Source: Roseiflexus sp.
GTDB lineage: Bacteria; Chloroflexota; Chloroflexia; Chloroflexales; Roseiflexaceae
Direction of reading: 5' to 3'
Length of the DNA: 40,932 nt
Assembly (NCBI GenBank): GCA_025062325.1
Contig: JANXAL010000010.1
Location: forward strand, 1-40,932
A program made the translations under genes and the position numbers. Shown piece after piece: positions 4,481 to 24,278 of the stretch. The notes beneath the pieces were generated by a model that saw only the letters and a list, made by a program, of their open reading frames with translations, made no database searches and was not told the DNA's origin. How positions within the stretch are numbered: position 1 is the stretch's first letter; every line of letters starts with the position of its first letter.

Positions 4481-4542
4481 AGAGAGGAAGGTTACAGGTG
4501 AGAAGGTAGATACGTGTAGGGGCGTTGCAGGTTCAAATGTAG

Positions 4543-5032: not shown

Positions 5033-5075
5033 GTCTAGTGTTATGGGTTACTCCTGCCAATACCAAAGGTTTTTA

Positions 5076-5229: not shown

Positions 5230-5281
5230 GAAAGGAGCCGGAGGGAGTGAGGAAGAGATCAGACGTCGAGACCGAAAAATA

Positions 5282-5315
5282 TGCTTGCATTTCAAAAAAC
5301 CTGCCCCTGCAAGCA
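5282..5315 (-). terminator. Hairpin downstream of the glycoside hydrolase
   Basis: TGCTTGCA (5282-5289) pairs with TGCAAGCA (5308-5315) across an 18-base loop that on the minus strand holds a TTTTTT run. It lies 46 bases beyond the stop of the minus-strand gene. The T-run is in the loop rather than after the stem, so the terminator call is weak. Confidence 0.3.
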
Positions 5316-5361
5316 GGATGCTCGTTGTGGGCGCCTGCAAGGGCGTGTTGAATGGAAACAG

Positions 5362-6852: not shown

Positions 6853-7046
6853 GAAAGCGCTGCGCAATGTTCCCCGTTTCCGTGCGCATTATACACCATC
6901 TCTCTCATTGAAACAGACAAAGTATTCATACGATTTGATAACAATTCTGTGACAATCAACTAAATTTGCACCCGTATCGTCTCCCTGACGCAGCGCGTTG
7001 TAACTCCCAGGCGTATGCTGAGAATAGGGCGAGGGGAGGCGTTCCA

Positions 7047-8462: not shown

Positions 8463-8490
8463 CGGCGCCTTATCGCTTCATCGCTCAAGC

Positions 8491-8847
8491 TTAGATGCCC
8501 TGCTGTCGTTCAGGCATCCAGGCGCTCAACGCGGCATGCACTAGCCAGGGAACCATCGCAAGCAACAGAAAAACGATTAACAGCGGATAGAACGTGACGT
8601 AGAGCATGATCGGCGGCAGCGAAAAGGGCAACGCAATCAGGATAGCGCGTAAACGACCAAGCGCCACCGCCGGACCGATCAGCAGCGCGGTCGAAATCAC
8701 AATCCACATCTCTGTTTCGCTGAGAATCTCAGCGTGCATTAGCCCTGGGGGCCAAAGCGCATCACCTGCCAGCAACCGGCGACCAAAGAATGCGATCAGA
8801 CCGGCAATCAACACGAGATACCCGCGCGCGACACGATGCGTAAACAT
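8491..8847 (-). CDS. Small integral membrane protein, unknown
   Basis: A 118-residue protein with about four hydrophobic segments (about residues 8-25, 46-66, 72-88 and 87-108: VLIAGLIAFFG, MWIVISTALLIGPAVAL, LIALPFSLPPIMLYVTF, LLIVFLLLAMVPWLVHAAL). No motif is recognised. The ATG at 8847 has GAAGG a short way upstream. It converges with the MaoC-Pta gene (28 bases between stops) and diverges from the MFS gene. Function unknown. Confidence 0.7.
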   Translation of the reverse strand: MFTHRVARGYLVLIAGLIAFFGRRLLAGDALWPPGLMHAEILSETEMWIVISTALLIGPAVALGRLRAILIALPFSLPPIMLYVTFYPLLIVFLLLAMVPWLVHAALSAWMPERQQGI

Positions 8848-8937
8848 GGACCTTCGCCCTTTCTATCTATCTGCCGATCAACCAGGACGACGCCTCCTCC
8901 TCGCAGCCTCTCACATTCAACGTTCAACGGTTTCGCC

Positions 8938-8996
8938 TTCCCCCAACCGTTCCGCGCCTCGCACCTCTCGCCTCGCACCTCTCGCCTCAACGATGA
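8938..8996. repeat. CCTCGCACCTCTCG direct repeats
   Basis: CGCCTCGCACCTCTCGCCTCG is followed by a second copy of CACCTCTCGCCTC. This is the reverse-strand form of the GAGGCGAGAGG blocks seen at 14580, 25142, 29340 and 32670, here in the gap between two divergent genes. A short AACGTTCAACGG motif precedes it. Confidence 0.55.
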
Positions 8997-9040
8997 TATA
9001 ATACCACCCTCAAACCGCTCCTTGATCAGTCGTGGTCGCC

Positions 9041-10321
9041 ATGCCCGTCCTATCCCAGCGTGACCGACATTCTCGGCCGGCAGACATCCATAAACAAAAT
9101 GTACGGAGCGTCCTGATCGATGGCATTGGCGTCGGCATTGTCACTGGCGTTTCGACTTTCCTCGGCGTCTTCCTGACCCGCCTTGGCGCCTCTCCCTTCC
9201 TGGTTGGTCTGCTCACATCGCTCCCAGCGCTCACCGGAATGATCCTGTCGATCCCGCTGGGACGCTTTCTTGAGCGACAGCGCAACATGGCCCCATGGTA
9301 TTCCTGGCCCCGCGCAATTGTGCAAGGATCGTTCGTACTGATAGGGCTGATCCCCTTCTTCCTGAGTCCGGAGATGACCGCCTATGCAATCATCGTTATC
9401 TGGGCGCTGGTTACGATCCCGCAGGCAATTGTCAATATCACATTCACCGTTGTCATGGGCGCAGTGGCGGGGCCACGTCAGCGCCAATATCTGATGAGTC
9501 GGCGCTGGTCGATCCTCGGCGCCACAACAGCGATCACGGTAGCGGCGATTGGTGCATTTCTCGACCATGTTACATTTCCGCTGAACTATCAGATTGTCTT
9601 TATGGCTTCATTTGTAGGGGGAGCGCTCAGTTTTGTCTTTTCGCGCCGCCTGACCATTCCCGACAATCCGCTATCCCGGAAGGAAGTCGCACAGCAGTCT
9701 CTGGGAGAATACCTCACCGATGTGCTGTCTGTGTTACGCGAATCGACACCGTTCAGCCGATTCGTTATTAGCGCATTTGTGTTTAACTTGGGCATGATGA
9801 TGGCGCTGCCCCTCTTCCCGCTCTACTGGGTGCGTCAGCTCAGCGCTTCGGACTTCTGGATCGGACTGATCAACATGACCAATAACGGCGTGCTGCTGAT
9901 CGCTTACTTCATCTGGACGGCGCTTACCCGGCGCAAGGGAAATGTGCTGGTGTTGCGCATTTGCACATTTGGACTGGCGCTCTACCCGCTGCTAACGGCG
10001 CTAACGCCACGGGTCGAGCCGCTGGTCGTCTACGCGGCGCTGGCTGGCATCTTCGGTGCGGGATTGAATTTGGTGCTGTTCGACATTTCGCTGGCGACAA
10101 CATTGCCCGAGCGAACGGCGTCGTACATCGCACTCTACCAGTTGACGACCCATATCGCAACCCTGGCAGCGCCGCTGGTCGGCACACTGTTCGCGGATCT
10201 CTTCGGCTACACGCCAGCGCTGCTGACCAGCGCGGCGCTCCGCCTGGTCGGCGCTGTTCTTTTCGTCTGGTTAGAGGTTGGCGTTGCTACAGAACATCCC
10301 CGCGCTGTGCAGGTGGCATAG
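9041..10321 (+). CDS. Major facilitator superfamily transporter
   Basis: About 426 residues with some twelve hydrophobic segments. The first half has GIGVGIVTGVSTFLGVFLTR and an MFS loop 2-3 region (LTGMILSIPLGRFLERQRN); a long central loop (ADNPLSRKEVA region) separates the halves. An inner-membrane proton- or solute-coupled permease is expected, but its substrate cannot be told. The ATG at 9041 is preferred to a GTG at 9032; neither has a clear ribosome binding site. The stop is two bases from the ATG of the next gene, so the two are probably co-transcribed. Confidence 0.88.
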   Translation: MPVLSQRDRHSRPADIHKQNVRSVLIDGIGVGIVTGVSTFLGVFLTRLGASPFLVGLLTSLPALTGMILSIPLGRFLERQRNMAPWYSWPRAIVQGSFVLIGLIPFFLSPEMTAYAIIVIWALVTIPQAIVNITFTVVMGAVAGPRQRQYLMSRRWSILGATTAITVAAIGAFLDHVTFPLNYQIVFMASFVGGALSFVFSRRLTIPDNPLSRKEVAQQSLGEYLTDVLSVLRESTPFSRFVISAFVFNLGMMMALPLFPLYWVRQLSASDFWIGLINMTNNGVLLIAYFIWTALTRRKGNVLVLRICTFGLALYPLLTALTPRVEPLVVYAALAGIFGAGLNLVLFDISLATTLPERTASYIALYQLTTHIATLAAPLVGTLFADLFGYTPALLTSAALRLVGAVLFVWLEVGVATEHPRAVQVA

Positions 10322-10323
10322 TT

Positions 10324-10914
10324 ATGGCGGATCAGCGTGTGATTACCATCGACGGTGTGACCCTAACGGTCATCGTTACGCGCAAAGCGGTCAAACATAT
10401 CAACGCCCGCTTGCGCGCTACAACCCTCTCCGTTAGCGCACCCTATCTGGTCAATGACGCAGACCTCGAGAACGCAATCTCGACTCTGGCGCGCCGCTTG
10501 ATTCGGCGCATCCACAAGCAGCAGGTCAACTGCGAGGAAGATGCTCTAGCGCTAGTGCAGCGGGTCGCCGCTCGCTTTCCCGAACCGCCGCTCGTTGCCC
10601 ACGCTGAGTTTGCGTTGACCGAAGGGCGCTGGGGCAGCTACAGCGTTGCGACGCGCACCATACGCCTGCATGCGGTACTGCGGCACATGCCGCGCTGGGT
10701 GCTCGAGGCAGTTGTAGCCCACGAGATCGCCCACGCGGTGCATCCTAACCATTCACCCGCGTTCTGGCGCTTGCTCCGGAGCGTCTGCCCCGATACCGAC
10801 CGTGCACAGGCATTTCTCGAGGCAGTAACCTGGATGGCGCGCACGTGGCACAACCTGTCGCCAGTCGAACGCACGCTGCTGGCGGGGATGTGCAATGAGA
10901 CCCACGAGGCCTGA
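10324..10914 (+). CDS. YgjP/SprT-like metallopeptidase-type protein (DUF45)
   Basis: The 196-residue protein has the zinc-peptidase signature VVAHEIAHAVHPNHSPAFWRL: H133, E134 and H137 of HEIAH, with a third ligand H143 in the PNHSPAFW extension typical of the M48-related DUF45 family. The segment GRWGSYSVATRTIRLHAVLR before it is also family-typical ('wGS...i.ln..L'). Substrate is unknown; in other bacteria members are found with DNA restriction or repair genes, but no such gene is nearby here. The start at 10324 lies just 2 bases after the MFS stop. The same frame is open far upstream inside the MFS gene, but that part has no coding character. Confidence 0.85.
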   Translation: MADQRVITIDGVTLTVIVTRKAVKHINARLRATTLSVSAPYLVNDADLENAISTLARRLIRRIHKQQVNCEEDALALVQRVAARFPEPPLVAHAEFALTEGRWGSYSVATRTIRLHAVLRHMPRWVLEAVVAHEIAHAVHPNHSPAFWRLLRSVCPDTDRAQAFLEAVTWMARTWHNLSPVERTLLAGMCNETHEA

Positions 10915-10926
10915 CGTCACGCCCCT

Positions 10927-10955
10927 TTGACATGAATCGCTGGCTATGCTAGAAT
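10927..10955 (+). promoter_or_regulatory. Promoter of tRNA-Cys
   Basis: A perfect -35 TTGACA (10927-10932), a 17-base spacer and -10 TAGAAT (10950-10955), ending 10 bases before the tRNA. It matches the layout of the tRNA-His promoter at 19759. Confidence 0.85.
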
Positions 10956-10963
10956 CGAAGCAG

Positions 10964-11040
<77 letters not shown>

Positions 11041-11229
11041 TATCCGGTATAGCCCTGGCATTCGCCAGCATATATGCGGTCCGCTAGTTATCTACAACGC
11101 GCGTTGCTTAGCCACTAGCGCGCAAGGGTGGCGACACTGCATCAGCAGGCGTGATTGTCCTGCAACTTGCCCGGTCGTCCCTACTACTCACAATATTTCA
11201 GAAAGCTACGAGGCTCGAACACCGATGGC

Positions 11230-11269
11230 GTACAAGATCGCACCCCCGTGTGATCAGTGCGATCTGTAC
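11230..11269. repeat. Long inverted repeat in gene-free region
   Basis: GTACA-a-GATCGCAC (11230-11243) pairs with GTGCGATCTGTAC (11257-11269): 13 pairs, one bulged A and a 13-base loop. It has no T-run. It may be an RNA hairpin or a protein-binding palindrome. Confidence 0.6.
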
Positions 11270-11654
11270 CTATTTGACATTCACATGACCGTGACCGCCA
11301 CGAGGAGTCCAAGCGATGACCGGAGCAAGTGAAGTGCCTGCTGCACATGAAGCGCGGCAACAGTTGAGGCGCTCTTCCGGCCAACGGTAGGACCGCCTGC
11401 TCCATGGGCGACGACCCTTGGATAGCTTTGGTTTGCAGAGGGGAGCGCTTTTCTGAGGGTGCGTCAGCACTACAGCGTCTCTATCATCCATGCCTTCCCG
11501 ACGCAACGTACCATGGAGAGAGATATTTTATTGCAGAATATCATCGAATTGTGAATAGACTGTCACAAGATTGTTCACACCAGGGGCCATGATCCCTGCT
11601 ATCATGGAAACGGGTTCGCCGAGAAGCGACCTGCATGTCAGTGGCATATCACCT

Positions 11655-11679
11655 GTCGTGGTACTGGCTCTACCACGAC
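11655..11679. repeat. Perfect 9-bp hairpin upstream of the hypothetical gene
   Basis: GTCGTGGTA (11655-11663) and TACCACGAC (11671-11679) pair perfectly around CTGGCTC. It lies 87 bases before the start of the next gene, so it could be a leader hairpin or an operator. Confidence 0.5.
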
Positions 11680-11765
11680 CCATAAGGGCGGATGTCGTCT
11701 CGCAACGGTGCGTACACTGACAATCGCGCACAGGCGCGACCGCTCCTGGAAAGGACGCATCGGCT

Positions 11766-12203
11766 ATGGGAATGCCCATCGATATCGACCTGGACGCGCT
11801 GGACGTTTCGGAACTCGAACGTCTGCGCGATGCGATCAATCGCCGTATTTTGCGGAAGCGGCGCACCAAGGGATTGACGCTGCCGGAGTTGCTGCGTCTC
11901 TTCGAAGAAACGAAAGCCGTGCTCGCCGAGCATCACCGCGAATGGCGCTCGCTCGAACGCTGGCAGTGGATGGATGGCGAGATCAAATTCTGGCTTAATC
12001 CGGTCGACCAGGAGTCCTATCGCGCAGGATGGTACTCGATTGACGATCTGATTGCCTGGGTATACAACGAAGGTCCAATCGTCATCCGTCGAGAGGAGGA
12101 CGAAGACGACGAACTCGATGATGAATGGAACGCGCGTGATAACCGCGATAATGTGACGATCCACTGGTTGCCCGACAGTGAAACGCACACGATGTCGCGC
12201 TGA
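11766..12203 (+). CDS. Hypothetical acidic protein
   Basis: A 145-residue soluble protein with no recognised family. The N-terminal third looks helical and amphipathic (DLDALDVSELERLRDAINRR, then KGLTLPELLRLFEETKAVLA). The middle has WRSLERWQWMDGEIKFWLNP and a Trp/Tyr-rich AGWYSIDDLIAWVYNEGPIV, and the end is strongly acidic (REEDEDDELDDEWN). The coding pattern is good. ATG at 11766 is chosen because GGAAAGGA lies 10 bases upstream; ATG at 11772 is an alternative. It converges with the zinc-ribbon gene; 9 bases separate the two stops. Confidence 0.75.
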   Translation: MGMPIDIDLDALDVSELERLRDAINRRILRKRRTKGLTLPELLRLFEETKAVLAEHHREWRSLERWQWMDGEIKFWLNPVDQESYRAGWYSIDDLIAWVYNEGPIVIRREEDEDDELDDEWNARDNRDNVTIHWLPDSETHTMSR

Positions 12204-12212
12204 TTGACCGCT

Positions 12213-12683
12213 TTACCCCGCCCGCAGGCCGCAGTTCGGGCAAAACACGGCGGTCTGCGGCATCTGAAAACCGCACGAGGCGCAAGTCTTGCCGCCCGCA
12301 ACCGGTTGTGGCGGTGGCGGTGTGGGTGGTAGCGAACGTGGCGGCTCGACACTCACGGGGACGTGCTGAGTCCGGGGAGCGGAGGTCGGCTCAGTAAATG
12401 CTAATCCCTGGACGTGGCGTAGCTCCTCTTCTTTCAATGTCAGACGTGCCTGTAACGCTTCAATCTCGCGCAGCAGCGCCGCTAGCGTCGGCGACTGAAT
12501 CGCGCCAGCCTTGAGCAGTTCGATTGCTCGATCGCCGCACTCCAGTCGCTTGGCATCAAGCTGACGGCGAAGATGACTGATCTCACCCTGAATGGCAGTC
12601 ACCCGCTGAAACTTCTCCGCCTCGAAGCGGGCGCGATCAACCCCCTCGGCAATTTTTCGGCTCAGTTCATCAAGAAAACCCAT
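12213..12683 (-). CDS. Coiled-coil protein with C-terminal zinc ribbon
   Basis: A 156-residue cytoplasmic protein. Residues about 1-95 are strongly helical and heptad-like (FLDELSRKIAEGVDRARFEA, then LLREIEALQARLTLKEEEL). A Pro-rich linker (LPPTPPPPQP) leads to a double-CXXC zinc ribbon, CASCGFQMPQTAVFCPNCG. The same ribbon type occurs in three nearby proteins (kinase, 16234 membrane protein, ABC fusion), suggesting a shared partner. The start ATG at 12683 has an AGGGGGTGGG run just upstream. The function of such proteins is not established. Confidence 0.8.
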   Translation of the reverse strand: MGFLDELSRKIAEGVDRARFEAEKFQRVTAIQGEISHLRRQLDAKRLECGDRAIELLKAGAIQSPTLAALLREIEALQARLTLKEEELRHVQGLAFTEPTSAPRTQHVPVSVEPPRSLPPTPPPPQPVAGGKTCASCGFQMPQTAVFCPNCGLRAG

Positions 12684-12731
12684 AACCCACCCCCTGGTTT
12701 TCCTGTATCATAGAAGAGCGTATCGTTGACG

Positions 12732-12746
12732 ATTTATTTAATAAAT
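12732..12746. promoter_or_regulatory. AT-rich palindrome between divergent genes
   Basis: ATTTATT-T-AATAAAT is a perfect 7-1-7 palindrome in otherwise GC-rich DNA. It lies between the divergent genes at 12683 (-) and 12750 (+), three bases before the plus-strand ATG. An operator or an AT-rich promoter part is inferred. Confidence 0.35.
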
Positions 12747-12749
12747 CTC

Positions 12750-12935
12750 ATGTCTGATCAACCTGAACGACGCGTGACGCGCGGGTGTATTGGCATCGTC
12801 ATCGTTGCATTGAGCGCACTCTTCGTGCATGCGTGGCAGACTGGCTGGAGCGTCGCGACAATCGCGCTGATTGCGGTGCTGATTGCGGCAATAGTTGCTG
12901 CCATTGCCATCAACATTGTTGAACGCAAGCATTGA
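12750..12935 (+). CDS. Small two-TM membrane protein
   Basis: A 61-residue protein from the ATG at 12750 (MSDQPERRVTRGCIGIVIVA). Two hydrophobic stretches (about residues 13-27 and 33-56: GIVIVALSALFVHAW and VATIALIAVLIAAIVAAIAI) indicate a membrane hairpin with charged ends. The frame is open to a TTG at 12726, but that reaches through an AT-rich palindrome and is unlikely. Divergent from the zinc-ribbon gene. No family is recognised. Confidence 0.6.
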   Translation: MSDQPERRVTRGCIGIVIVALSALFVHAWQTGWSVATIALIAVLIAAIVAAIAINIVERKH

Positions 12936-13003
12936 GCGTTCTCCAGACCTGCAATCCGCCCGCCTCCGGGTGTTCCGCGACCTGCCTGTGAACTCTGGCG
13001 CGG

Positions 13004-14476
13004 CTACGGCGTGGCTGGCACGAGAATAAACCCGGTGATTGAGGCGCGATACTTGACTCCGCTTGCATCTTCGGCGATCTTCTGCGGTTCACCACCGACA
13101 TATGAGAGCGGCACGCTAGTATTGATTCGCGCCTGCGGTCCAAACCGTTCCTGAACAGCGCGCGTATATGCAAGGACGAACGCCTGCTCGACATCGCTGC
13201 CATGTTGAACAACCACTTCAATATTTTCAACCGTAAACTGTTGCTGGATCAGGCGCTGCGGCGTCGGTGTCGCCAACGCCGGAATACTCTGTATGGCGCG
13301 CGCAGCAAGATCAGGAAATGCCAGCGCCACGGTCGCCGCCAGCAGTGCGATGACCACAAAGATGAAAAGCGCCGTACCAAGCCTTGAAGATCGGCGCGCT
13401 TTTGGAGGCGCTCCCGGTTTCTGCACGGGCGCAGTCGCCGGAGCGGACGATGGCGCCGCCTGGGGCGCTCGAATGGTCGGCGGCGCTGCGGATTGAGGCG
13501 CGGCAGGAGGAGTTGATGACGAAACTGGTTGAGGTGCGGCTGGCGCAGCGACCTGGGCTGATGTCGGGAGCGCTTGAGTCGCCGGGACGACGCGCACCTG
13601 TGCGGGCGCATGGTCAGGCAAGAGCGCTCGGCGAAACTCCGCCACACTCCGGTAGCGTTCCTCCGGCTTCATCTTCAACGCCTTCATAATTGCATCAGAC
13701 GTGCGCTTGGAGACGTTCGGGCGCAAAGCGTAGACCGGCGGGAATGAAAAGGGCGGCTCATCGCGCGGGTCGCGTCCGGTGAGCATATGATGCAGGGTCG
13801 CGCCAAGCGAAAAGATATCCGACTCAGGCGTGGCAATGCCCTGATACTGCTCAGGCGGGGCGTAGCCGGGGGTGCCGATCTGTGTGCCGCGCTGCAACGG
13901 CTGAAACACCTTCGCAATGCCGAAGTCAATCAATTTCACATTGTCGTCCGGCTCGATCATGATATTCGAGGGCTTGATGTCGCGGAAGATAATCGGCGGG
14001 TTCTGCCGATGGAGATATTCCAGCACGTCGCAGATCTGATCCGCCCACCGCAACGCGCGCTCTTCAGGGATGAACCGTTCACGCCGAATGATGTCTTCTA
14101 GATCAGACCCGTGCACGAAGTCCATCGCCAAATAGTGACACCCCTCGTCTTTAAAGTCGGCGTAGACGCGAGGGATGCGCGGATGCCGCAGTTGCTCCAG
14201 GATCTTTGCCTCCGCCTCGAAGCGCGCTACTGCCTCGTCACGTTCACGCGGGTCAGTGAAGCGGTCCAGCATCTGCTTGATTGCATAGATGCGACCATTA
14301 TCATCAATCGCCTCGAAAACCGCCCCCTGCCCGCCTTCCTTAATCACGCGCGTGATGTAATAGCGTGGACCAGCGTTGTTCAGGATGACATCGTGACCAC
14401 AATGCTGACAGAACCGGGCGCGCCGGAGATTCGGCTTGTGGCATTTAGGGCAAAGAATCTGCTGGACATTGGTCAT
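13004..14476 (-). CDS. Membrane-anchored Ser/Thr protein kinase with N-terminal zinc ribbon
   Basis: A 490-residue receptor-type kinase. Residues 9-26 form a zinc ribbon (CPKC...FCQHCG). The kinase domain (about 40-290) has glycine loop KEGGQGAVFE, ATP-binding K67 (YAIKQ), catalytic loop FRDIKPSN (D166, N171), DFG at 184-186 and APPE at the APE site. HRD is FRD here; all other key residues are present. A Pro/Ala-rich linker (about 290-365) leads to one TM helix (367-388) and an outside domain of about 100 residues. The start at 14476 puts the ribbon first, as in related kinases; the open frame extends upstream through repeats with no match. A natural partner is the double-FHA protein at 16989-19700. 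Confidence 0.92.
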   Translation of the reverse strand: MTNVQQILCPKCHKPNLRRARFCQHCGHDVILNNAGPRYYITRVIKEGGQGAVFEAIDDNGRIYAIKQMLDRFTDPRERDEAVARFEAEAKILEQLRHPRIPRVYADFKDEGCHYLAMDFVHGSDLEDIIRRERFIPEERALRWADQICDVLEYLHRQNPPIIFRDIKPSNIMIEPDDNVKLIDFGIAKVFQPLQRGTQIGTPGYAPPEQYQGIATPESDIFSLGATLHHMLTGRDPRDEPPFSFPPVYALRPNVSKRTSDAIMKALKMKPEERYRSVAEFRRALLPDHAPAQVRVVPATQALPTSAQVAAPAAPQPVSSSTPPAAPQSAAPPTIRAPQAAPSSAPATAPVQKPGAPPKARRSSRLGTALFIFVVIALLAATVALAFPDLAARAIQSIPALATPTPQRLIQQQFTVENIEVVVQHGSDVEQAFVLAYTRAVQERFGPQARINTSVPLSYVGGEPQKIAEDASGVKYRASITGFILVPATP

Positions 14477-14900
14477 ATGCAGACCTGTGACGTGCGCACC
14501 AGGCATCACAAGCGTTTCCCTGGTAGGGTAGCACACCTGCGCGGAAACGGCAACTATTGCCCTCTCAGGTATTACGCGCCAGAGACGCCTAGAGTTGCGG
14601 ACGCGGTGAGAGGAGCGAGGCCAGCGACACGAGATGAGAGGCAGAAGGTAAGAGGTGCCAGGCAAGAGACAAGAGGCGCCAGGCAAGAGGCGCGCATACG
14701 CTCGTGCGTGTCTCTTCGCTGATCCGCTCCCCCGTTCGCTGACGGGCGAAAGAGGCATAGGCAAGAGGCTTGGGGCAAGAGGCGTGCATGCGCTCATTCG
14801 TTTCCATTCGCTTATTCGCTTCCCCATTCGCTGACCGCTTCATTCGCTTATCCGCTTCCCCATTCGCTGACAGCGCAGCGGTGCACATAACCCCTACCCC
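14477..14900. repeat. Low-complexity GAGGCAAGAGGC / TTCGCTTCCCC blocks
   Basis: No gene is seen. About 14630-14700 and 14750-14790 hold imperfect GAGGCGCCAGGCAAGAGGC units. About 14710-14875 holds TTCGCTTATCCGCTTCCCCA-type units with GCTGACCG between them. The same two-block design recurs at 29280-29660 (reversed) and 32670-32860. The end at 14889 is a CCCCTACCCCTTACCCCTTAA tract. Confidence 0.75.
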
Positions 14901-14911
14901 TTACCCCTTAA
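14889..14911. repeat. G-rich tract supplying a stop codon
   Basis: On the minus strand the tract reads TTAAGGGGTAAGGGGTAGGG. It supplies the last two sense codons (AAG GGG) and the TAA stop of the methyltransferase gene. It is related to the TTAGGGG tracts at 3741, 16971, 29053 and 32921. Confidence 0.8.
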
Positions 14912-16121
14912 TATCAAGCACCGCCAGCGACTCCAGATGCGGCGTTTGCGGAAACATGTCATAGCCCTGCAACGATGCCAGTCGATACCCCGATAGCAGC
15001 GCGTGGATGTCGTCACGTTGCGTCAGCGGGTTGCACGAGACGTACACGATCCGACGCGGGCGCAACCGCAGCAGCTCGCGGCAGACCTCAGGACCCAGGC
15101 CGGTGCGCGGCGGATCGGCGACTACCACATCAAATGCGCCGATTGCCTGCGCGCGAAGCGCATCGACAACATTCGATTCGACCACAATAATATGATCGTG
15201 CCCGGCGCGTGCGCTGTTGTCACGCGCCAGACGCGCACTCTCGCCAACCAACTCAACGCAGACAATCCGATCTGCACAATCGGCGACATGGAGCGCGATT
15301 GTGCCAACTCCGCTGTACAAATCAGCAATGACGCCGGCGTGTCCGCCTGCGGCGACGGCGTTGCGCACAGCATCAAGCAGCGGCATCAACAACCAGACGT
15401 TGTTCTGGAAGAAGGAATTCGGACCGATTTCGAGCGTGTGTGCGCCAACGCGCATTGGCAACGTGGCACGACCCCAGTGATACGCCGATTCGCCAAACGA
15501 CACGTCGGTGCGAGTCGCGTTGATCAGCCAGTGGACACTAAGCACACCTGGAAGTTTAAGCGCTGCTAGCGCCACGCGCTCCACCTTTTCGGCGACGACC
15601 TCTTTCTCTTCAGGAGCGGTGGTGACCAGCGCCAGCAACAGTTCATCGTCAGGGCTGCGCCGTACAACAACATACCGCAGAAAGCCGGTGTGAGTTCGCA
15701 AATCATAGTCAGGCAACCCTAACGCCACGGCATGCTCGTAGATGAAGCGCGCAGCGGCGAAGGCATGCGCTGGCATAAGATGACACTCACGCAGATCAAC
15801 GATATAGTTGAATCTGCCGCTGCGTCGCAGACCAAAGCGTTCCTTGCTTGCGACAAAATCCATGCGCGTGCGGTAGGCAAACGGGTTCGGCGAGGCGACG
15901 ACATCGAGCGCATCGTTGAGGCTGTCCGGCAGATCATTGCTCCAGAGGCTGCGGAGCGCTGCACGTTTCGCTGCTACCTGGGCTGGATAGGCGCGATCCT
16001 GAAACACACATCCGCCGCACTGTCCCAGCGGCGGCGCATGTGAACAGCGCGGCGCAACCGGCTCGCCTGCCTGCACCGCCTCGATGATCTGCTGACGAAA
16101 GCGTTTGTTCGAGATAGTCAT
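14901..16121 (-). CDS. 23S rRNA (uracil-5-)-methyltransferase, RumA/TrmA family
   Basis: SAM-dependent m5U methyltransferase acting on RNA. The 406-residue protein begins with the Cys cluster of the RumA type (C26, C35, C38 in CSHAPPLGQCGGCVF), which with a later Cys holds a 4Fe-4S cluster. Then come IGPNSFFQNN, SAM site DLYSGVGTIALHVA, ADPPRTGLG, and YVSCNP with the catalytic Cys. No N-terminal TRAM domain is present, so it is a short member. Modified base (U747, U1939 or a tRNA U54) cannot be told. The last codons and stop lie in a TTAAGGGG tract. It diverges from the zinc-ribbon membrane gene at 16234. Confidence 0.92.
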   Translation of the reverse strand: MTISNKRFRQQIIEAVQAGEPVAPRCSHAPPLGQCGGCVFQDRAYPAQVAAKRAALRSLWSNDLPDSLNDALDVVASPNPFAYRTRMDFVASKERFGLRRSGRFNYIVDLRECHLMPAHAFAAARFIYEHAVALGLPDYDLRTHTGFLRYVVVRRSPDDELLLALVTTAPEEKEVVAEKVERVALAALKLPGVLSVHWLINATRTDVSFGESAYHWGRATLPMRVGAHTLEIGPNSFFQNNVWLLMPLLDAVRNAVAAGGHAGVIADLYSGVGTIALHVADCADRIVCVELVGESARLARDNSARAGHDHIIVVESNVVDALRAQAIGAFDVVVADPPRTGLGPEVCRELLRLRPRRIVYVSCNPLTQRDDIHALLSGYRLASLQGYDMFPQTPHLESLAVLDIKG

Positions 16122-16233
16122 GAGAACTCACAAAAGAGAACGCTCGCAACTTTATCCAATCCGGGAGCGTATTATAGCAAGAGACAGGGTTCAGAACACA
16201 TCTGCGCGTCGCGCGCCTGGAGGGGATCCCGCG

Positions 16234-16716
16234 ATGACTGACACAACTGCTGTCTGCCAACGCTGCAACGCCAGTATTCCGGCTGATGCGCATTTTTGCA
16301 TCGAATGCGGCGCGCCGATGAACAACCCGTTCGTTGAACAGGCGCCTGCTACCGGACCGACAGTTCAATTGCCGGCACGTCCTCCCGCTTCGGCGCCAGT
16401 TCCGGCGCCTGCGCCGCAACCACAAGCGCCGCCGCAGACGGAGTGGTACGACGACCTTATGATTCCGCTGCTGTTGATCACCGGCGCAGTAGCAATGGTC
16501 ACGCTGCCGCGATTCGTGGTATTCATTATGATCGCCATCGGCGTCGTCGGACTGTTGCTCACTGTTCTGCGCAACATCGCTGCGCGTCGAATAATTGCAG
16601 CAGCGGCCCTGGCGGTCGCCATCGGATTTTTCTTCAGCCGCAGACTGTTCTGGGCGCCGCTCATTATTGCGCTGATTGCCGTATCGTTGATCAAGAAGCG
16701 CAAGCGAGGCTCCTAG
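16234..16716 (+). CDS. Zinc-ribbon membrane protein
   Basis: A 160-residue protein: N-terminal zinc ribbon CQRCNASIPADAHFCIECG, a Pro/Ala-rich linker (residues about 45-70) and about three to four hydrophobic segments (LMIPLLLITGAVAMVTL, FVVFIMIAIGVVGLLLTVL, IIAAAALAVAIGFFF, LFWAPLIIALIAVSLI), ending KKRKRGS. The ATG at 16234 is preceded by TGGAGGGG; the upstream open frame from 16105 belongs to the divergent gene's leader. The ribbon in front of a membrane part mirrors the kinase and ABC proteins nearby. No enzymatic motif; role unknown. Confidence 0.82.
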   Translation: MTDTTAVCQRCNASIPADAHFCIECGAPMNNPFVEQAPATGPTVQLPARPPASAPVPAPAPQPQAPPQTEWYDDLMIPLLLITGAVAMVTLPRFVVFIMIAIGVVGLLLTVLRNIAARRIIAAAALAVAIGFFFSRRLFWAPLIIALIAVSLIKKRKRGS

Positions 16717-16810
16717 TAGGCAAACCGCCGTATGCCCTTTTATGTAAACTGGTTATCCGCACCAGCAGAATGAGTCCGCTCAACCCGTGCTGCCGAGCCG
16801 CGCGTCCTTT

Positions 16811-16896
16811 GCGCTGCGGGCTAAAACCCTTGCTCAGGACGTAGAAGCCTCCACGGGGGCTTTCACGATCTCAGCCAGGGCTTTAGCCCGCAGCGC
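16811..16896. repeat. 86-bp palindromic element (20-bp arms)
   Basis: GCGCTGCGGGCTAAAACCCT (16811-16830) and AGGGCTTTAGCCCGCAGCGC (16877-16896) are inverted copies with 19 of 20 bases paired. A second, smaller inverted pair (AAGCCTCC / GGGGGCTT) sits in the loop. The whole would fold as a long, two-stage stem in DNA or RNA. It looks like a REP- or MITE-like intergenic element; it could also end transcription of both converging genes. Confidence 0.75.
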
Positions 16897-16970
16897 CCAG
16901 GAATACCGAACTATTTTCTTCATTAGTACGCGCCCCCGACATACGCGCACCGCTCCAGATTCTCAATAAT

Positions 16971-16990
16971 CCTAACCCTAACCACCCCCT
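16971..16990. repeat. CCTAACCCTAACC tract overlapping a stop codon
   Basis: The tract CCTAACCCTAACCACCCCCT gives, on the minus strand, the TAG stop of the FHA-ABC gene and the G-rich bases after it. It is another member of the telomere-like family in this window. Confidence 0.75.
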
Positions 16991-19700
16991 ACCTCTGACG
17001 ATCGCGCTGATAGAGTTGCCAGGCAGTCAGCGCCAGGCAAACGACCATGTAGCCCAAGAGGATCCCCCAACGCGAGAGCAGGTGGGTCGGCGTAAAGGTA
17101 TACTCCGCCGGCGGATTGGGCAGGCGCAGCATTCCTGGTTGTAGCGGCAGATCGTTAATATTGACCGACGTGCCGTAGGCGTCCATCGCCCAGCGGCTAA
17201 TCGTTAGCCAGGAGAGGACGCGCTGTACGGTGATGCCATCTCCAAGGCTAAAAATCACCCCCGCAAAAATGATCTGCGGGATAAGCGCCAGCGGCACCAG
17301 CGAAATCGCCCGATCCGGCGTCGCCGCAAACGCGGAGATGGCCAGTCCCATAGCCAGCCCCGCCAGCGACGTCAGCACGGCAGTAATGAACAACTCCAGT
17401 TGAATCGGCAGCATGACCCCCTGTGCAGGAAACCGCACCTTCAGACCGACCAGCGCCAGCAGCACAGCGCTCTGGATAATGACCAGCAGCAACAGGACTA
17501 CCACCTTTGACAGCACATACGGCGCAATGCGCAGATTTGCCAGACGCTCACGGCGATAGATCGGCGCTTCTTTAGCGATCTCGCGCGCAGCATTGATAAT
17601 GCCGAACCAGACGCCAACCGTCGCCAGCATAAACAGCACCTTCTTGGCTTCGTTGGCAAAGGCGTTCTCGCCAACGATCGCATCAGCCTTAGCGACCAGC
17701 ATCAACAGCAAACCGATGATCGGCGCTTGGAGAAGCAGGATCGCTAGATTTCGCTTATCCTGAAGGATCAGATCGAAATACCGGCGCACCAGGATGCTGA
17801 ATTGTCGCAATGACGAGACGCCAGGGCGCTTAGCCGCGCCGCCTCCCTCAGCGCTGCCCGACACCGGTCCGGCTGGGGCTTCCGCCAGTCGCCCGGCTAC
17901 ATACGTGGCATACTGCGGTGAGACGCGAAACTTCATTTCCCACAACTCAGCAAGCGTTGGAACTGTCGGTTTACTGTTGCCCGACGTCTGCTGGACATGA
18001 TGTTGCCATGCCGCATACTCTGCCTGAAGGTCGCGCTGCACGATCGCCCATCGTTCGGGATCGTTAGGATCCGCCAATCCGTCGATACGGGTGTAGATGT
18101 CGGCAAAATCGCCGCTCGACACGCCAAAGAAGTTGAGCGCCTCGGCTGGCGGACCAAAGAAGACCATGCGCCCATCGGACATAAACGCAACGTGATCGCA
18201 GACGTTGATATTGGCAGTTGCGTGGGTCACTAGAACAATCGTTCGTCCGCTGTCCGCCAGGCGACGCAGCGTGTACATCATCTTTTTTTCGAGACCGGGA
18301 TCAAGACCGGAGGTAGGTTCGTCCAGGAAGAAGAGCGACGGATCTGCCAGCAGTTCGGCGCCGATGCTGACCCGTTTGCGCTGTCCGCCCGACAGATTCT
18401 CGATCAGTTTCTCGCGGTGCGGCGTCATTTCGACATCTTCGAGTACGCGATCAATGCGCTGGCGAATTTCCGATGGCGCTGTATCGGCAGGCAGGCGCAG
18501 TTCAGCAGCGTATGCCAAGGCGCGTTCAACAGGCAAACTGCGATGGAGAATGTCGTCCTGCGGGACGTAGCCAAGGACGGACCGGTAGGCGTCGAAGTTG
18601 CGGTAATAATCGTCGCCATTGACCAGGACGCTCCCGTGGGTCGCCGGGACGAAGCCGGAGAGAGCGTTGAGGAGCGTGCTTTTGCCGGTGCCGCTGCCAC
18701 CGACAAGCGCTACAAATTCACGCGGCGCAATCGAGAGCGAGACATCCTTCAGGATCATCCGGGTCTTGCCGCCGCGCGAGACTTCACGCCACAGATTGCG
18801 CGCATCGATGCGCAGCGCACCGCGTTGATCGTACTGGTCAAGGCTTTCGCCGGTGTACACCAGTTTGAACGCGCCGATCTGGATAATGTCACCTTTGACC
18901 AGCGTGTGCTCGGTAATGCGTCGCCCGTTAACGAACGTGCCGTTGGTGCTCCCAATGTCACGCAACACATGCTTCCCGTTTACACGGTCAATAACAGCGT
19001 GCTTGCGCGATACCTGCGGGTTGTCGAGCAGAATCTCGCATCCTTCGCGTCCAATCGTGATCTGCGGATCGGTCGGATCAAGCCGGTATCTGCGTGCGAC
19101 CTCCGCTGCCCGCTGGACCTTCGGCGCCTGCGGGTTGCGATAGGTCAGCGTGACGAAATTACCGGTCGCCGGGTCGCCGATCCGCAATACGTCGCTGTCC
19201 GCCAGCACGTGGGGCGCATTGGCAGGGAGACGCTTCCCCTCGAAGAGCAACCCGTTGGTGCTGCCAATATCAACAATCCGGTGCGCGACGCCGTGCGGCT
19301 CGATGCGCGCGTGGCGTCCAGACACAAAGCGCGAGGTAATGACAATATCGTTATCGGGTGCACGCCCGATGGAGAGCGGCCGTTGACCGAGCGCGACCTC
19401 AAAGGTGCGTCCCACATCCTGAACTATCAGCATTGGTCCAGCGACTGACGATCCGCCCTGGAGCGACCCGGCGCCAATTATCGTTGTGGCAGGGGCGCTA
19501 CCAGGCGCGGCAACCGGTGTTCCCTGTCCTGATAGCGCTGATGTTCCTGGGACGCCTCCGTGAGTAGCTGAGGAACCAGCAGATGATGCGAGCGCTGTGG
19601 GGATGGGAGTATCCTGCGGTTTCCCGCAGCGCGTACAGAACTTTGCACCGGGTCGGCTCAACAGCGCGCCACAGTGAATGCAGGTTGCAGGCTGTGACAC
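16989..19700 (-). CDS. Zinc-ribbon / double FHA / ABC-2 transporter fusion
   Basis: A 903-residue ABCG-type half transporter fused to signalling domains. Order: zinc ribbon (residues 7-25, CIHC...CTRC); linker; FHA 1 (about 90-185, GRAPDND, RHARIE, STNG); FHA 2 (about 205-290, GREG, SRKHAV, STNGT); ATPase with Walker A GGSGTGKST (about 334-342), signature LSGGQRKR (about 436) and Walker B FFLDEPTSGLD (about 457-467); six or so membrane segments (about 640-900). FHA domains bind phosphothreonine, so activity or assembly is probably controlled by a Ser/Thr kinase such as that at 13004-14476. The GTG start at 19700 is chosen because AGGAGG lies 6 bases upstream; the frame is open to 19742. Substrate unknown. 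Confidence 0.94.
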   Translation of the reverse strand: MSQPATCIHCGALLSRPGAKFCTRCGKPQDTPIPTALASSAGSSATHGGVPGTSALSGQGTPVAAPGSAPATTIIGAGSLQGGSSVAGPMLIVQDVGRTFEVALGQRPLSIGRAPDNDIVITSRFVSGRHARIEPHGVAHRIVDIGSTNGLLFEGKRLPANAPHVLADSDVLRIGDPATGNFVTLTYRNPQAPKVQRAAEVARRYRLDPTDPQITIGREGCEILLDNPQVSRKHAVIDRVNGKHVLRDIGSTNGTFVNGRRITEHTLVKGDIIQIGAFKLVYTGESLDQYDQRGALRIDARNLWREVSRGGKTRMILKDVSLSIAPREFVALVGGSGTGKSTLLNALSGFVPATHGSVLVNGDDYYRNFDAYRSVLGYVPQDDILHRSLPVERALAYAAELRLPADTAPSEIRQRIDRVLEDVEMTPHREKLIENLSGGQRKRVSIGAELLADPSLFFLDEPTSGLDPGLEKKMMYTLRRLADSGRTIVLVTHATANINVCDHVAFMSDGRMVFFGPPAEALNFFGVSSGDFADIYTRIDGLADPNDPERWAIVQRDLQAEYAAWQHHVQQTSGNSKPTVPTLAELWEMKFRVSPQYATYVAGRLAEAPAGPVSGSAEGGGAAKRPGVSSLRQFSILVRRYFDLILQDKRNLAILLLQAPIIGLLLMLVAKADAIVGENAFANEAKKVLFMLATVGVWFGIINAAREIAKEAPIYRRERLANLRIAPYVLSKVVVLLLLVIIQSAVLLALVGLKVRFPAQGVMLPIQLELFITAVLTSLAGLAMGLAISAFAATPDRAISLVPLALIPQIIFAGVIFSLGDGITVQRVLSWLTISRWAMDAYGTSVNINDLPLQPGMLRLPNPPAEYTFTPTHLLSRWGILLGYMVVCLALTAWQLYQRDRQR

Positions 19701-19758
19701 AATCACCCTCCTGTCGGTGAACACGCGAGTCGATTGTAGCATGATCTGTAAACGCCGT

Positions 19759-19787
19759 TTGACGCCTTCTGGACGCTATGCTATACT
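19759..19787 (+). promoter_or_regulatory. Promoter of tRNA-His
   Basis: The -35 TTGACG (19759-19764), a 17-base spacer and -10 TATACT (19782-19787), ending 11 bases before the tRNA. The same spacing is found before tRNA-Cys. Confidence 0.85.
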
Positions 19788-19798
19788 AAAGCCGAAGC

Positions 19799-19874
19799 GG
19801 TGCCTGTAGCTCAATGGCAGAGCGCCTGACTGTGGCTCAGGAGGTTGTGGGTTCGAGACCCATCAGGCACCCCA
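19799..19874 (+). tRNA. tRNA-His (anticodon GTG)
   Basis: The acceptor GTGCCTG (19800-19806) pairs with CAGGCAC (19864-19870). The extra G at 19799 (G-1) faces C73 at 19871, the histidine identity pair. The anticodon stem CCTGA/TCAGG encloses CTGTGGC, so the anticodon is GTG. The T arm is GTGGGTTCGAGACCCAT, and CCA is encoded at 19872-19874. A terminator follows at 19890. Confidence 0.97.
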
Positions 19875-19889
19875 CTTTATGTGCGCCCC

Positions 19890-19912
19890 AGCCTCGTTAA
19901 AGAGGCTTTTTT
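19890..19912 (+). terminator. Rho-independent terminator after tRNA-His
   Basis: AGCCTC (19890-19895), loop GTTAAA, GAGGCT (19902-19907), followed by TTTTT (19908-19912). It is a classic short stem plus T-run, 16 bases after the encoded CCA. Confidence 0.85.
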
Positions 19913-19914
19913 GC

Positions 19915-20180
19915 TTAAAGGCCGATCCGCTGAGTTCCTGGAATGGCAGCATCTGGCCCCGCGACAATTCGCTCGTCACGCGGGACTGGCGCGCAGCGGG
20001 TTCCGCAACGAAGCCAAATCTGCGCATTGGCGAGCGGCGTGTGCTCATCCAGGCGACGCACACCGGCATCGAGATGGTGTCGAACGGCAGGGTCGATATT
20101 CGCATCGAAGGCCTGACGACCGGACGGCGCCGGATGTGCTGCGTTCCGAGAGCGTGGCCAGCGTCTCCTCTGCCTGAACA
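19915..20180 (+). pseudogene. Coding-like remnant, family unknown
   Basis: There is no gene between the terminator and 20295, but one plus frame (in phase with 19879) has GC-rich third positions and reads like protein: SSWNGSIWPRDNSLVTRDWR, LRIGERRVLIQATHTGIEMV, NGRVDIRIEGLTTG. It has no start with a ribosome binding site, and it runs on into unlikely sequence before a stop at 20248-20250. It may be the inner part of a gene that has lost both ends. No family is recognised; the rest of the gap to 20294 shows nothing. Confidence 0.3.
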
Positions 20181-20294
20181 GCATAAGGGCAAGTCTCAGA
20201 TCCGCCCTTACGCTTTCCCGCATTGCACTGGGCCGTTCCTGCGGTTCTGACCCGTTTAACTGTATGCTAAGACGCAGATTGCTCCGGTGACCGC

Positions 20295-21593
20295 TTAAGG
20301 CTGTGCACACTCCATCGCTCGCCGTTGCATCGAAGCGGCAGTTTCTGCGGTAGTGCGCCTGCCAAGCAGAAATGGCGGCAGGTCAACCTCGATGGCATCC
20401 CAGGCGCAACGGACGGAGCGGGTCGGCGGGATGCCCGGCGCGCGGCTAGCATACGCGGCGGCCGCCGCCAAAGCCGGATCGTCGGTGACTGCGGGGTCGT
20501 TCAGCGCGGCGATAGATGCCGGGAGCATACCGAGATCACGCGCAATGCGCGATTGCCACGCCGGTTCGCGCAGGGTCGCCGCCAGCGCTTCCGCCTGCGC
20601 CAGCCGTTGACCTTCGAGCGCAACGCCGTACATCAGGTAGACGCCAGTGAGCGGCGCGGTCGCCGGTGTGCCGCGATTCGTCAGCGGCAGCGGCGCAATC
20701 CCCAACTCGAGGGTATCGGTCAATCCACGGTAGCTGTCCAGCGCCCAATCGCCATCGATCGCCAGCGCCGCTTTGCCGCGCCGAAACAATTGTGCGCCTT
20801 CGTCGTAGGTTGAGGGGAGCGTTGGTCCGAATCGTCGCACAGTGCGCAGCAGTTCAAGCGCAGCGACAACTGGCTGAGCGTCGAGGGCGGGCATCCCGTT
20901 GGCATCAAGCAATGCTCCTCCTGTTATGTCAAGCCAGAGTGCAAACCAGCGCGCCTCGGTCCATCCGGCCACCAGTCCGACCCTTCCGCTGCCGGTATTG
21001 GCGCGCGCAGTAGCGATCAGCGCATCGACGGTATGCGGCGGATTCTCCACAAGCTTCCTGTTGTAGAGCAGCAGCATGAACCCCCGTGCGCCGACCGGTG
21101 CGCCCCACTGTCGATCATCAGCGGTCGCGCCGGTAATAACGGCGGATAGCGTGTCATCGGGAGGCGTCGGACGCACTGCCTGAATCAGCCCCATCGTGCG
21201 TAGAATCGCCAGGTCGTTGCCATCGCCCCAGATGACGTCTGGCGGTGGTCGCCCGTCGATCTGATCGACGCGCAGGCGAGCGATCATGGCGTCGGGAGTG
21301 CTGCTACGGATGCGGATCGGCACGCCTGCTGCAGCGGCAGCATCAGCTAACAGCAGTGTGAGGGCATCGCGGCGCGCTTCGTCGCCAGCGGCCCATACGG
21401 TCAGCGGTTCTGGCACAGGCGTGGGCGTGGGGGATGGAGTCGCTGTCGGCGCGACGGTCGGCGAAGGAAGCGGCGCTAACGCGGCGGCAGGTAGCGCGGC
21501 CGGCTCAGGGGCTGGCGTCAACGGCACAGCTTCGGGTTGACCGCAGGCTGCCAGAATAAGGATGAGCATGAGAACACGCCCATACAGCGTCAT
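20295..21593 (-). CDS. Extracellular solute-binding lipoprotein (sugar ABC type)
   Basis: A 432-residue binding protein of the family-1 (maltose-binding-like) type. Lipoprotein signal LILAAC with C17; then a Pro/Ala/Thr linker (PSPTVAPTATPSPTPTPVPE) that stands the domain off the membrane. The domain begins LTVWAAGDEARRDALTLLLA and shows PPDVIWGDGNDLAIL, APVGARGFMLLLYNRKLVE, and GKAALAIDGDWALDSYRGL. The start ATG at 21593 overlaps the stop of the preceding gene (ATGA), so it is translated by coupling; no separate ribosome binding site is seen. No permease or ATPase genes are present in this operon, so partner subunits must lie elsewhere. The fucosidase upstream suggests a glycan-derived ligand, as inference only. 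Confidence 0.88.
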   Translation of the reverse strand: MTLYGRVLMLILILAACGQPEAVPLTPAPEPAALPAAALAPLPSPTVAPTATPSPTPTPVPEPLTVWAAGDEARRDALTLLLADAAAAAGVPIRIRSSTPDAMIARLRVDQIDGRPPPDVIWGDGNDLAILRTMGLIQAVRPTPPDDTLSAVITGATADDRQWGAPVGARGFMLLLYNRKLVENPPHTVDALIATARANTGSGRVGLVAGWTEARWFALWLDITGGALLDANGMPALDAQPVVAALELLRTVRRFGPTLPSTYDEGAQLFRRGKAALAIDGDWALDSYRGLTDTLELGIAPLPLTNRGTPATAPLTGVYLMYGVALEGQRLAQAEALAATLREPAWQSRIARDLGMLPASIAALNDPAVTDDPALAAAAAYASRAPGIPPTRSVRCAWDAIEVDLPPFLLGRRTTAETAASMQRRAMECAQP

Positions 21594-21967
21594 GGTTGCA
21601 GTATTTCCCGGAAAGATTGGCGCACAGGCGCACAGGCGCAACGTGTTTTACGAATGGCAGTCACGCCGCTTTCTCTGCCGTCTGAAACCAGCAGTGCGCC
21701 TCTTTTCAGGAGGTGTGCGCAACATGTCGGCACACTCGCAGCATCGAACGCTAGCGGCGCGTGGCCAGCGATCAGCAACGCCTCCAGCAGCGCCGCACGT
21801 GCACGCGCCGTGTAGCGTTTGCCGGAAAAATTCGCCCTTGTGAGTTCCCTGTCGCCCGGTCTGCTTGCGCTGCTGACGACGCGCCTGCCCAGATTGGCAA
21901 CCAGTGCGAGCATTTTTGCGCTATCCTCGTTAATGCCCAGCACATACCCGGCGCTCGTCGCATTCAT
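21590..21967 (-). CDS. Small hypothetical protein coupled by ATGA on both sides
   Basis: A 125-residue protein with no recognised family. Its ATG overlaps the fucosidase stop (ATGA at 21967-21964), and its own stop overlaps the start of the binding protein (21593-21590). That double overlap argues it is truly translated. It has an Ala/Arg-rich middle (YTARARAALLEALLIAGHAP), several Cys (TCCAH, CACAP) and no membrane segment or signal. Reduced or decayed family members cannot be excluded. Confidence 0.55.
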   Translation of the reverse strand: MNATSAGYVLGINEDSAKMLALVANLGRRVVSSASRPGDRELTRANFSGKRYTARARAALLEALLIAGHAPLAFDAASVPTCCAHLLKRGALLVSDGRESGVTAIRKTRCACAPVRQSFREILQP

Positions 21968-23256
21968 CGAAGGAACAACTCCACGACCGGCACCGTCACT
22001 CTGGGCTTGACCGTGGGCAATTCCAGGATCAGCGCATCAGCGTCGGTTCTGGCGACGCTCCATTCCGTGCGTGTTCCTGGCTCGAGCACTCGCACCTCGC
22101 TGGCGTCGTTGAGCAATTGCGCATACTCCACCCGGCCCGCTAAGCCATCGAGGTAAAGGTGACGGAAGGGCCAAGAAAAGATGTGAAGGTAGAGACGTTT
22201 CCCATTCTGGGTAAATCGACAGTCGGTCGGGGCAGTGAACTCACTCTGCGTACAGCCGTAGATCGAACGGCTGTGCAGACGCATCCAGTCGGCATAGACC
22301 TTGAGCGCCGCCAGCGTCCGGTCGTCGAGCGTTCCGCGCGCCGTCGGACTGACGCCCACCAACAGGTTGCCGCCGCACGCCACAGAGCTGATCAGCATCT
22401 GAATCAGTTGTTCAGGGCTTTTCCAGGTCGTGTCATCGCGGTGGTAGCCCCACGAGCCGCTGAGGGTCTGACACGTCTCCCACACGACCGGTTCGCCATC
22501 AACGTGAACCCACTCACGCGGCTGAGTCTGCTCTAGCGTATGGACATCGGCAAACTCGGTGGGCAGATCGAGGCGATTATTGACAATAATATCGGGCGCC
22601 AGGTCACGCACCAGGCGCAGCAACGCTTCGCTCTCCCAATCGGCGCGCCCTTTGCCGGGCAGTCCATTGTATTCGCGATCAGGATAGGAGAAATCGAACC
22701 GGATGAGGTCCACCGGTCCGTAGCCGGTCAGCAACTCGCGCACCTGGCTGCGCATATATGCAGCATAGCGACGCATATCACGTCTAGCGTTCAGTTGAGC
22801 GACATTCGGATGATCGCGCAGCGGATGGAAAATATCGATCAAGAAATCGGGATGATGCCAGTCGATAAGCGAATAGGAGAACCCGATGCGCAACCCCTCG
22901 GCACGGAACGCTTCAACGAACGACTTTAGCAGATCACGTTTTGCGGGAGTATTTGGCGCCTTGTAATTGGTGTACTGCGAATCCCAGAGGCAGAACCCGT
23001 CGTGGTGCTTGGTCGTAACGACTACGTACTTCATCCCGGCCTCACGCGCAGCGCGCGCCCAAAGGCGCGGATCGTACAGGTCGGGATCGAAATGATTGAA
23101 ATAGCGCTGGTAGGTTTCATCGTCGATCTTCTCGCGGCTCTTGGCCCATGCATCGCGCGCTGCGAGCGCATACAACCCCCAGTGAATGAATATACCAAAG
23201 CGATCATGCACGAACCAGGACGTATCGCCGCGTGTTGGCGCTGGTGTGAGCATCAT
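21964..23256 (-). CDS. Alpha-L-fucosidase, GH29
   Basis: A retaining exo-glycosidase removing terminal L-fucose. About 430 residues: RFGIFIHWGLYALAARDAWA (residues 19-38), VVVTTKHHDGFCLWDSQYT (78-96) and IRFDFSYPDREYN (185-197) with the probable nucleophile D188, then VWETCQTLSGSWGY and GGNLLVGVSPTARG. These blocks follow the GH29 order. No signal peptide is present, so it acts in the cytoplasm on imported sugars. Two ATGs follow each other (23256, 23253); the AGGAG upstream suits the second better. Third in a minus-strand run with the dehydrogenase (34 bases upstream) and two ATGA-coupled genes downstream. Confidence 0.93.
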   Translation of the reverse strand: MMLTPAPTRGDTSWFVHDRFGIFIHWGLYALAARDAWAKSREKIDDETYQRYFNHFDPDLYDPRLWARAAREAGMKYVVVTTKHHDGFCLWDSQYTNYKAPNTPAKRDLLKSFVEAFRAEGLRIGFSYSLIDWHHPDFLIDIFHPLRDHPNVAQLNARRDMRRYAAYMRSQVRELLTGYGPVDLIRFDFSYPDREYNGLPGKGRADWESEALLRLVRDLAPDIIVNNRLDLPTEFADVHTLEQTQPREWVHVDGEPVVWETCQTLSGSWGYHRDDTTWKSPEQLIQMLISSVACGGNLLVGVSPTARGTLDDRTLAALKVYADWMRLHSRSIYGCTQSEFTAPTDCRFTQNGKRLYLHIFSWPFRHLYLDGLAGRVEYAQLLNDASEVRVLEPGTRTEWSVARTDADALILELPTVKPRVTVPVVELFLR

Positions 23257-23290
23257 CGTCTCCTGTGCGGTTGAATTGAATGGAGCAACG

Positions 23291-24247: not shown

Positions 24248-24278
24248 GCACACCTCGCAGAAAAGCGACTGTCGCCCG

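Follow-up and report, generated by a model that had tools for sequence, protein, structure and literature searches.

The window analysed here, a stretch of 40,932 nucleotides of contig JANXAL010000010.1 from a Roseiflexus sp. genome (G000), carries a group of genes encoding a coiled-coil protein, a Ser/Thr kinase, a methyltransferase, a small membrane protein and an ABC half-transporter fused to two FHA domains, termed here the exporter (Table 1). All of these except the methyltransferase bear a zinc ribbon (ZR). A first-pass annotation of the sequence had described four ribbon proteins, among them a double-FHA ABC fusion, and six-frame ORFs together with Pfam matches confirmed them at about the coordinates where it had placed them.

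Table 1. Features of the window and of the operon at locus L059, on contig C27 of the same genome
Feature	Coordinates	Strand	Remarks
Coiled-coil protein, C-terminal four-Cys zinc ribbon, 156 aa	window 12213..12683	-	Zn_Ribbon_1 at residues 134-152
Ser/Thr kinase, N-terminal zinc ribbon, one predicted TM, short C-terminal tail, ~490 aa	window ~13004..14476	-	Pkinase 5e-44
RlmD/TrmA-like uracil-5-methyltransferase (rRNA/tRNA)	window 14901..16121	-	tRNA_U5-meth_tr 6.5e-16
Membrane protein, N-terminal zinc ribbon and hydrophobic segments, 160 aa	window 16234..16716	+	Zn_Ribbon_1 9.7e-07; convergent with exporter gene
Rearrangement junction of two ancestral neighbourhoods	window 16717..16988	.	Synteny switch; palindromic dispersed repeat 16805-16902
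Exporter: ZR-FHA-FHA-ABC ATPase-ABC2 membrane half-transporter, 917 aa ORF	window 16989..19742	-	Pfam domains
Ribbon-PP2C	L059 6585-7979		First operon gene
Ribbon-PP2C with kinase-like stretch	L059 8000-9799		Second operon gene
Ribbon-kinase with predicted TM segments	L059 9802-11178		Third operon gene
VWA protein	L059 11264-12502		Fourth operon gene
Three-ribbon coiled-coil FHA protein	L059 12524-14020		Fifth operon gene

Ribbon genes and the exporter protein

Each of the ribbons, previously read as a double CXXC, is a single four-cysteine site per protein. Pfam scores of the ORFs against Zn_Ribbon_1 (cut-off 25 bits) were 25.0 bits for the coiled-coil protein, 26.9 for the kinase, 28.8 for the membrane protein and 20.4 for the ABC protein; in a six-frame search all four cluster proteins scored above the cut-off. 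Seventeen genes exceed it genome-wide, so that ribbons are not specific to the four-protein set. When 17 ribbon genes were placed at random in 4.73 Mb, at least four fell within 7.5 kb anywhere in 0.005% of the placements. The physical clustering of the four ribbon genes is beyond chance; by descent, only three of them belong together (see below). The exporter and the kinase do not form a single simple operon, since the methyltransferase gene lies between them and the gene for the membrane protein runs the other way. The methyltransferase, which scores 179.3 bits against the rumA model (cut-off 183.55), is not part of any signalling module. A reading of the region as a defence system was also rejected: the PADLOC matches (PD-T4-6, mad6, mad3) reflect generic kinase/ATPase similarity and constitute no system.

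Pfam matches identify in the exporter two FHA domains (3.7e-37), an ABC_tran domain (5.4e-29) and an ABC2_membrane domain (2.6e-20). Its orthologues begin at residue 13, which places the likely start near 19703. In an alignment of eight divergent orthologues the ribbon cysteines C21, C24, C36 and C39 are invariant, as are R127/S141/H144/N163 in the first FHA domain and R232/S245/H248/N267 in the second, the residues expected to bind phosphothreonine. When PDB sequences were searched for FHA relatives, ABC ATPases swamped the matches. Residues 342-894, comprising the NBD and TMD, align with ABCG2, and by analogy with that family the exporter is probably a dimer of half-transporters. The segment between the FHA domains measures about 25 residues and has no conserved Ser/Thr, which argues that the phospho-ligand must be elsewhere than in the linker.

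The window kinase retains the AIK, FRDIKPSN and DFG motifs, and its ORF remains open further upstream, to 14827. Its orthologues (79-89%) occur in the genus and in G009, the same range to which clear orthologues of the 160-aa membrane protein are limited. The coiled-coil protein is present in 29 of 40 relatives, and its gene adjoins the kinase gene in G001-G004 and G006-G009, with a gap of 38 bp in G006. The exporter was not detected in G004 (99% complete), which has the kinase, coiled-coil and membrane ribbon genes, or in G006 and G008, which have the kinase and the coiled-coil protein. The G004 contig ends about 1.2 kb beyond its membrane-protein gene, and the missing exporter of that genome should be read with corresponding caution.

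A junction of two ancestral loci

Synteny divides the gene group in two. Window positions 3764-16716 match one locus in four relatives, namely the complete same-genus genome G003 (4.863-4.877 Mb), G001 (contig C124), G009 (C8) and G004 (C22). Positions 16989-25055, comprising the exporter, a solute-binding protein and the gene at 24279-25055, match another locus, on contig C154 of G001. Because synteny switches between two ancestral loci within 16717-16988, we place the junction there. It contains a 98-nt self-complementary stretch with partial matches at L067, L059 and L040. An identical junction was assembled in G002 (C499) and G005 (C124), and it is therefore not an assembly error of the window genome. 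Adjacency of exporter and kinase is limited to these two close relatives and the window's own genome, the three congeners that share the window arrangement. The two genes are 48 kb apart in G003 and lie on separate contigs in G001 and G009. A simple deletion joining the two loci was ruled out: the DNA that separates kinase and exporter in G003 is found on contig C119 of G000, which indicates a rearrangement instead.

The exporter thus came to lie beside the window kinase recently, through genome rearrangement in the window's lineage. The first-pass annotation had taken the four ribbon proteins as one module and had named a conserved neighbourhood in relatives as a check; that check, when run, failed outside G002 and G005, and the four genes receive no support as an evolutionary unit. 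Where a motif is as widespread as the ribbon is here, a chance rearrangement can mimic a functional gene cluster.

The operon linked to the exporter in relatives

The FHA-ABC gene divergently adjoins PP2C genes in 24 genomes, which belong to three families of the order (f1: G007, G010, G011; f3: G025, G028, G031, G034, G037, G139, G307; f4: G026, G029, G032, G035, G038, G147, G163, G232, G264, G272, G300, G321, G369, G397). The conserved order of the adjoining operon is ZR-PP2C, ZR-PP2C, ZR-kinase, VWA, ZR-FHA; all five genes are visible in this order in 7 of the 24 (G011, G147, G163, G264, G272, G232, G397), and f3 has a reduced set of a PP2C, a kinase without ribbon and an FHA protein. Similar arrangements occur in named records of Oscillochloris (L137/L138) and Herpetosiphonaceae (L194). 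Ribbons are carried by five of the six proteins of this ancestral neighbourhood; they are also common elsewhere, and missing from the f3 kinase. We found no description of a five-gene set with an FHA-ABC protein and ribbons in the open-access papers searched.

The window's genome retains this operon intact on contig C27 (L059:6585-14020, with gaps of 2-85 bp), and a further kinase-PP2C-VWA-FHA set is present at L068. In G003 the operon, likewise intact and compact, lies at 3.445-3.452 Mb and the exporter at 4.922 Mb, about 1.47 Mb apart. The central region of the second PP2C matched a kinase profile with an hhalign probability of 43% (E 2.4e-4, single template), which is weak evidence that it may contain a degenerate kinase domain.

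Phylogenetic analyses bear on both genes. The operon kinase of G000 groups with the kinases linked to the exporter, and a separate clade holds that of the window (100/100); the latter is a paralogue of the kinase that is linked to the exporter elsewhere. In the exporter tree, the rows without linkage (the window, G001, G003 and G009) branch from within the linked ones: their sister group is G010/G007, and G011 follows (99/96 and 99/97). Linkage of exporter and operon was therefore lost, not primitively absent. One row of this tree, L108, represents a distant paralogue whose neighbours include kinases; the part of the tree that holds the window rows is unaffected. The VWA gene, used as a marker of the operon, is present in G004 and G006, two genomes at least 99% complete in which FHA-ABC was not detected; the operon is therefore not devoted to the exporter.

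Candidate regulators and known systems

We consider it probable that the exporter, an ABCG-like half-transporter, is of the phospho-regulated Rv1747 type, and that its likely regulators are encoded by the operon on C27 rather than by the window kinase. The operon kinase would phosphorylate threonines on itself, on the ribbon-FHA protein or on another partner; the two FHA domains of the exporter would bind phosphothreonine on such partners, by which the transporter would be assembled or its export of substrate gated; and the PP2Cs would erase the phosphorylation. The VWA and ribbon-FHA proteins may act as a scaffold. The rearrangement would then have split the exporter from its operon and set it beside an unrelated locus of kinase, coiled-coil, methyltransferase and membrane-protein genes. 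About 20 kinases are encoded in the genome, and kinases of bacteria can cross-phosphorylate, both of which count against this reading.

The scheme put forward in the first-pass annotation was a different one: phosphorylation by the window kinase is read by the FHA-ABC protein, and the ribbons serve the coiled-coil and membrane proteins for docking. Such a module would be consistent with clustering beyond chance, with the intact motifs of the window kinase and with adjacency kept in three congeners. However, G001, G003 and G009 lack the adjacency, G004, G006 and G008 have partner genes without a detectable exporter, strands and the intervening methyltransferase exclude a single operon, and the window kinase is a paralogue of the linked one, so that we regard the scheme as quite improbable. 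That an FHA-ABC exporter among ribbon proteins should be under the control of a membrane Ser/Thr kinase fits the family, and this general idea is supported in kind; the partners are other ones, since the conserved neighbours are those of the operon elsewhere, and the window kinase and the exporter are probably the wrong pair, with the operon on the other contig as the candidate. Retention of the junction in three species, and the recurrence of kinase-FHA-ABC adjacency across bacteria, could instead reflect a recent co-option, with the exporter brought under the window kinase in this subclade once the rearrangement had occurred; yet the two share no transcription unit and are separated by a convergent gene, and the genome still has the original operon in intact form, so that we judge this unlikely.

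The FHA domains might also serve mainly other partners in this group, for example a ribbon-FHA-TM-ectodomain protein whose 1080-aa gene lies 153 bp upstream of the exporter in G009, in the same direction. This gene is broken by transposase-like DNA in G003 and lies in several frames in G001, and the C-terminal two thirds of its product have no match in the window. We give little credence to this possibility for a protein that is confined to a small clade and decaying there. It is also conceivable, and in our estimate unlikely, that the exporter, the two PP2Cs, the kinase and the ribbon-FHA protein form one membrane-associated phospho-switch, with the shared ribbons as an assembly or metal/redox-sensing element; export would then answer both to phosphorylation and to zinc or thiol state. 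If our preferred reading, regulation by the C27 operon, is correct, the order possesses a full set of kinase, FHA and two PP2Cs for writing, reading and erasing phosphorylation, with a genetic tie to a single exporter, and phospho-gating of ABC exporters would become testable outside mycobacteria.

Although the first-pass annotation had supposed that such a regulated export unit was undescribed, a kinase and a double-FHA ABC exporter encoded by a two-gene operon, PknF and Rv1747, have already been studied in M. tuberculosis (PMC3908365; PMC5549992). Phosphorylation by PknF promotes condensation of the Rv1747 FHA region, which has a long disordered inter-FHA linker, and the phosphatase PstP reverses it (PMC9312465); this offers a direct model of how an FHA exporter could be acted on by a kinase together with a PP2C. 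The exporter and its operon are best regarded as a variant of the known Rv1747/PknF kind. Both exporters have two N-terminal FHA domains fused to an ABC ATPase and an ABC-2 membrane domain, and in the mycobacterial case the exporter is under the control of the membrane Ser/Thr kinase encoded next to it. The window exporter, however, has a zinc ribbon ahead of its FHA domains and lacks the long disordered linker; its phospho-ligand would, in contrast to the view of Rv1747, lie outside the linker. Furthermore, no kinase belongs to its transcription unit; a convergent gene and the methyltransferase intervene in the window, and ancestrally the exporter gene had next to it, in divergent orientation, an operon of five genes that encodes two PP2Cs as well as VWA and FHA proteins.

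As kinase density peaks near FHA-ABC genes, their association with kinases recurs in Chloroflexota, Cyanobacteria and other groups, Rv1747/PknF being the studied case: at 76 further named FHA-ABC loci outside the order it was 134 per Mb within 2.5 kb and 27 per Mb at 7.5-10 kb, against a background of about 4.4 per Mb in the window's genome. The FHA-ABC proteins of cyanobacteria and other Chloroflexota share the ABC-ABC2 core, with one to three FHA domains and a kinase often within 1 kb. Unlike the window exporter, most have no ribbon on the ABC protein, and PP2C, VWA or FHA partners are seldom adjacent, with exceptions in Anaerolineae and related MAGs (for example L146, L148 and L153). Outside the order, ribbons were found on both ABC and partner at 3 loci, on the ABC alone at 2, on the partner alone at 2 and on neither at 38, a distribution that is suggestive and confounded by ancestry.

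Ribbon-bearing kinases and phosphatases are themselves already known, since NCBIfam models exist. The N-terminal four-Cys ribbon on a Ser/Thr kinase resembles that of 4Cys_prefix_kin (NF045510), and the operon PP2Cs and ribbon-FHA protein are similar to the PRK14559 phosphatase; the proteins described here fall under the model cut-offs, and several such genes stand in one operon. In TerY-type triads, a VWA protein, a PP2C and a kinase are encoded together. The VWA, PP2C and kinase genes of the L059 operon lie together likewise, a likeness offered as a lead only, and here, in contrast to the triads, the ancestral neighbour is an FHA-ABC exporter.

Kinase sets and a putative kinase remnant

The genome of the window (G000) carries additional kinase-VWA sets (table), and the one on contig C93 comprises a beta-propeller kinase, a PP2C, a VWA and a ribbon-FHA gene. 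Immediately downstream of the FHA-peptidase fusion lies a kinase gene. In the ZR-PP2C, ZR-PP2C, ZR-kinase, VWA, ZR-FHA operon, the second PP2C (L059:8000-9799) shows weak mid-protein similarity to a protein kinase C-lobe; it possibly contains a degenerate kinase domain.

Ribbon-FHA genes next to the exporter

Relatives G001, G003 and G009 carry a ribbon-FHA-TM-ectodomain gene immediately upstream of the exporter gene, broken in G001 and G003; around the exporter in the window, no such gene was seen.

Features by locus (L) or contig (C)
Feature	Genome	Position	Remarks
Kinase-VWA set	G000	L068:5494-10420 (C93)	
Kinase-VWA set	G000	C36:16094-18435	
FHA-clostripain-family peptidase (Peptidase_C11) fusion	G000	L067:5521-8754 (C64)	
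Ribbon-FHA-TM-ectodomain gene	G009	L041:1418-4660	1080 aa; immediately upstream of exporter
Ribbon-FHA-TM-ectodomain gene	G003	L039:13034-17509	interrupted by transposase-like DNA
Ribbon-FHA-TM-ectodomain gene	G001	L040:7444-10800	spread over several frames
Short dispersed repeats		L069:2118-2236, 4330-4587, 15975-16150, 18753-18910	~100-250 bp

Repeats and the left part of the window

The short repeats at L069 match dozens of sites in G000 and G001. One ORF in the window (4352-4786) is built from recurring 'AATLRCNVQRRCDAMCSDVAM'-like units, which suggests a short tandem DNA repeat there. At the left edge (2-1839), ORFs resemble by eye CRISPR adaptation genes (the end of Cas1, Cas2 and a Cas4-like gene).
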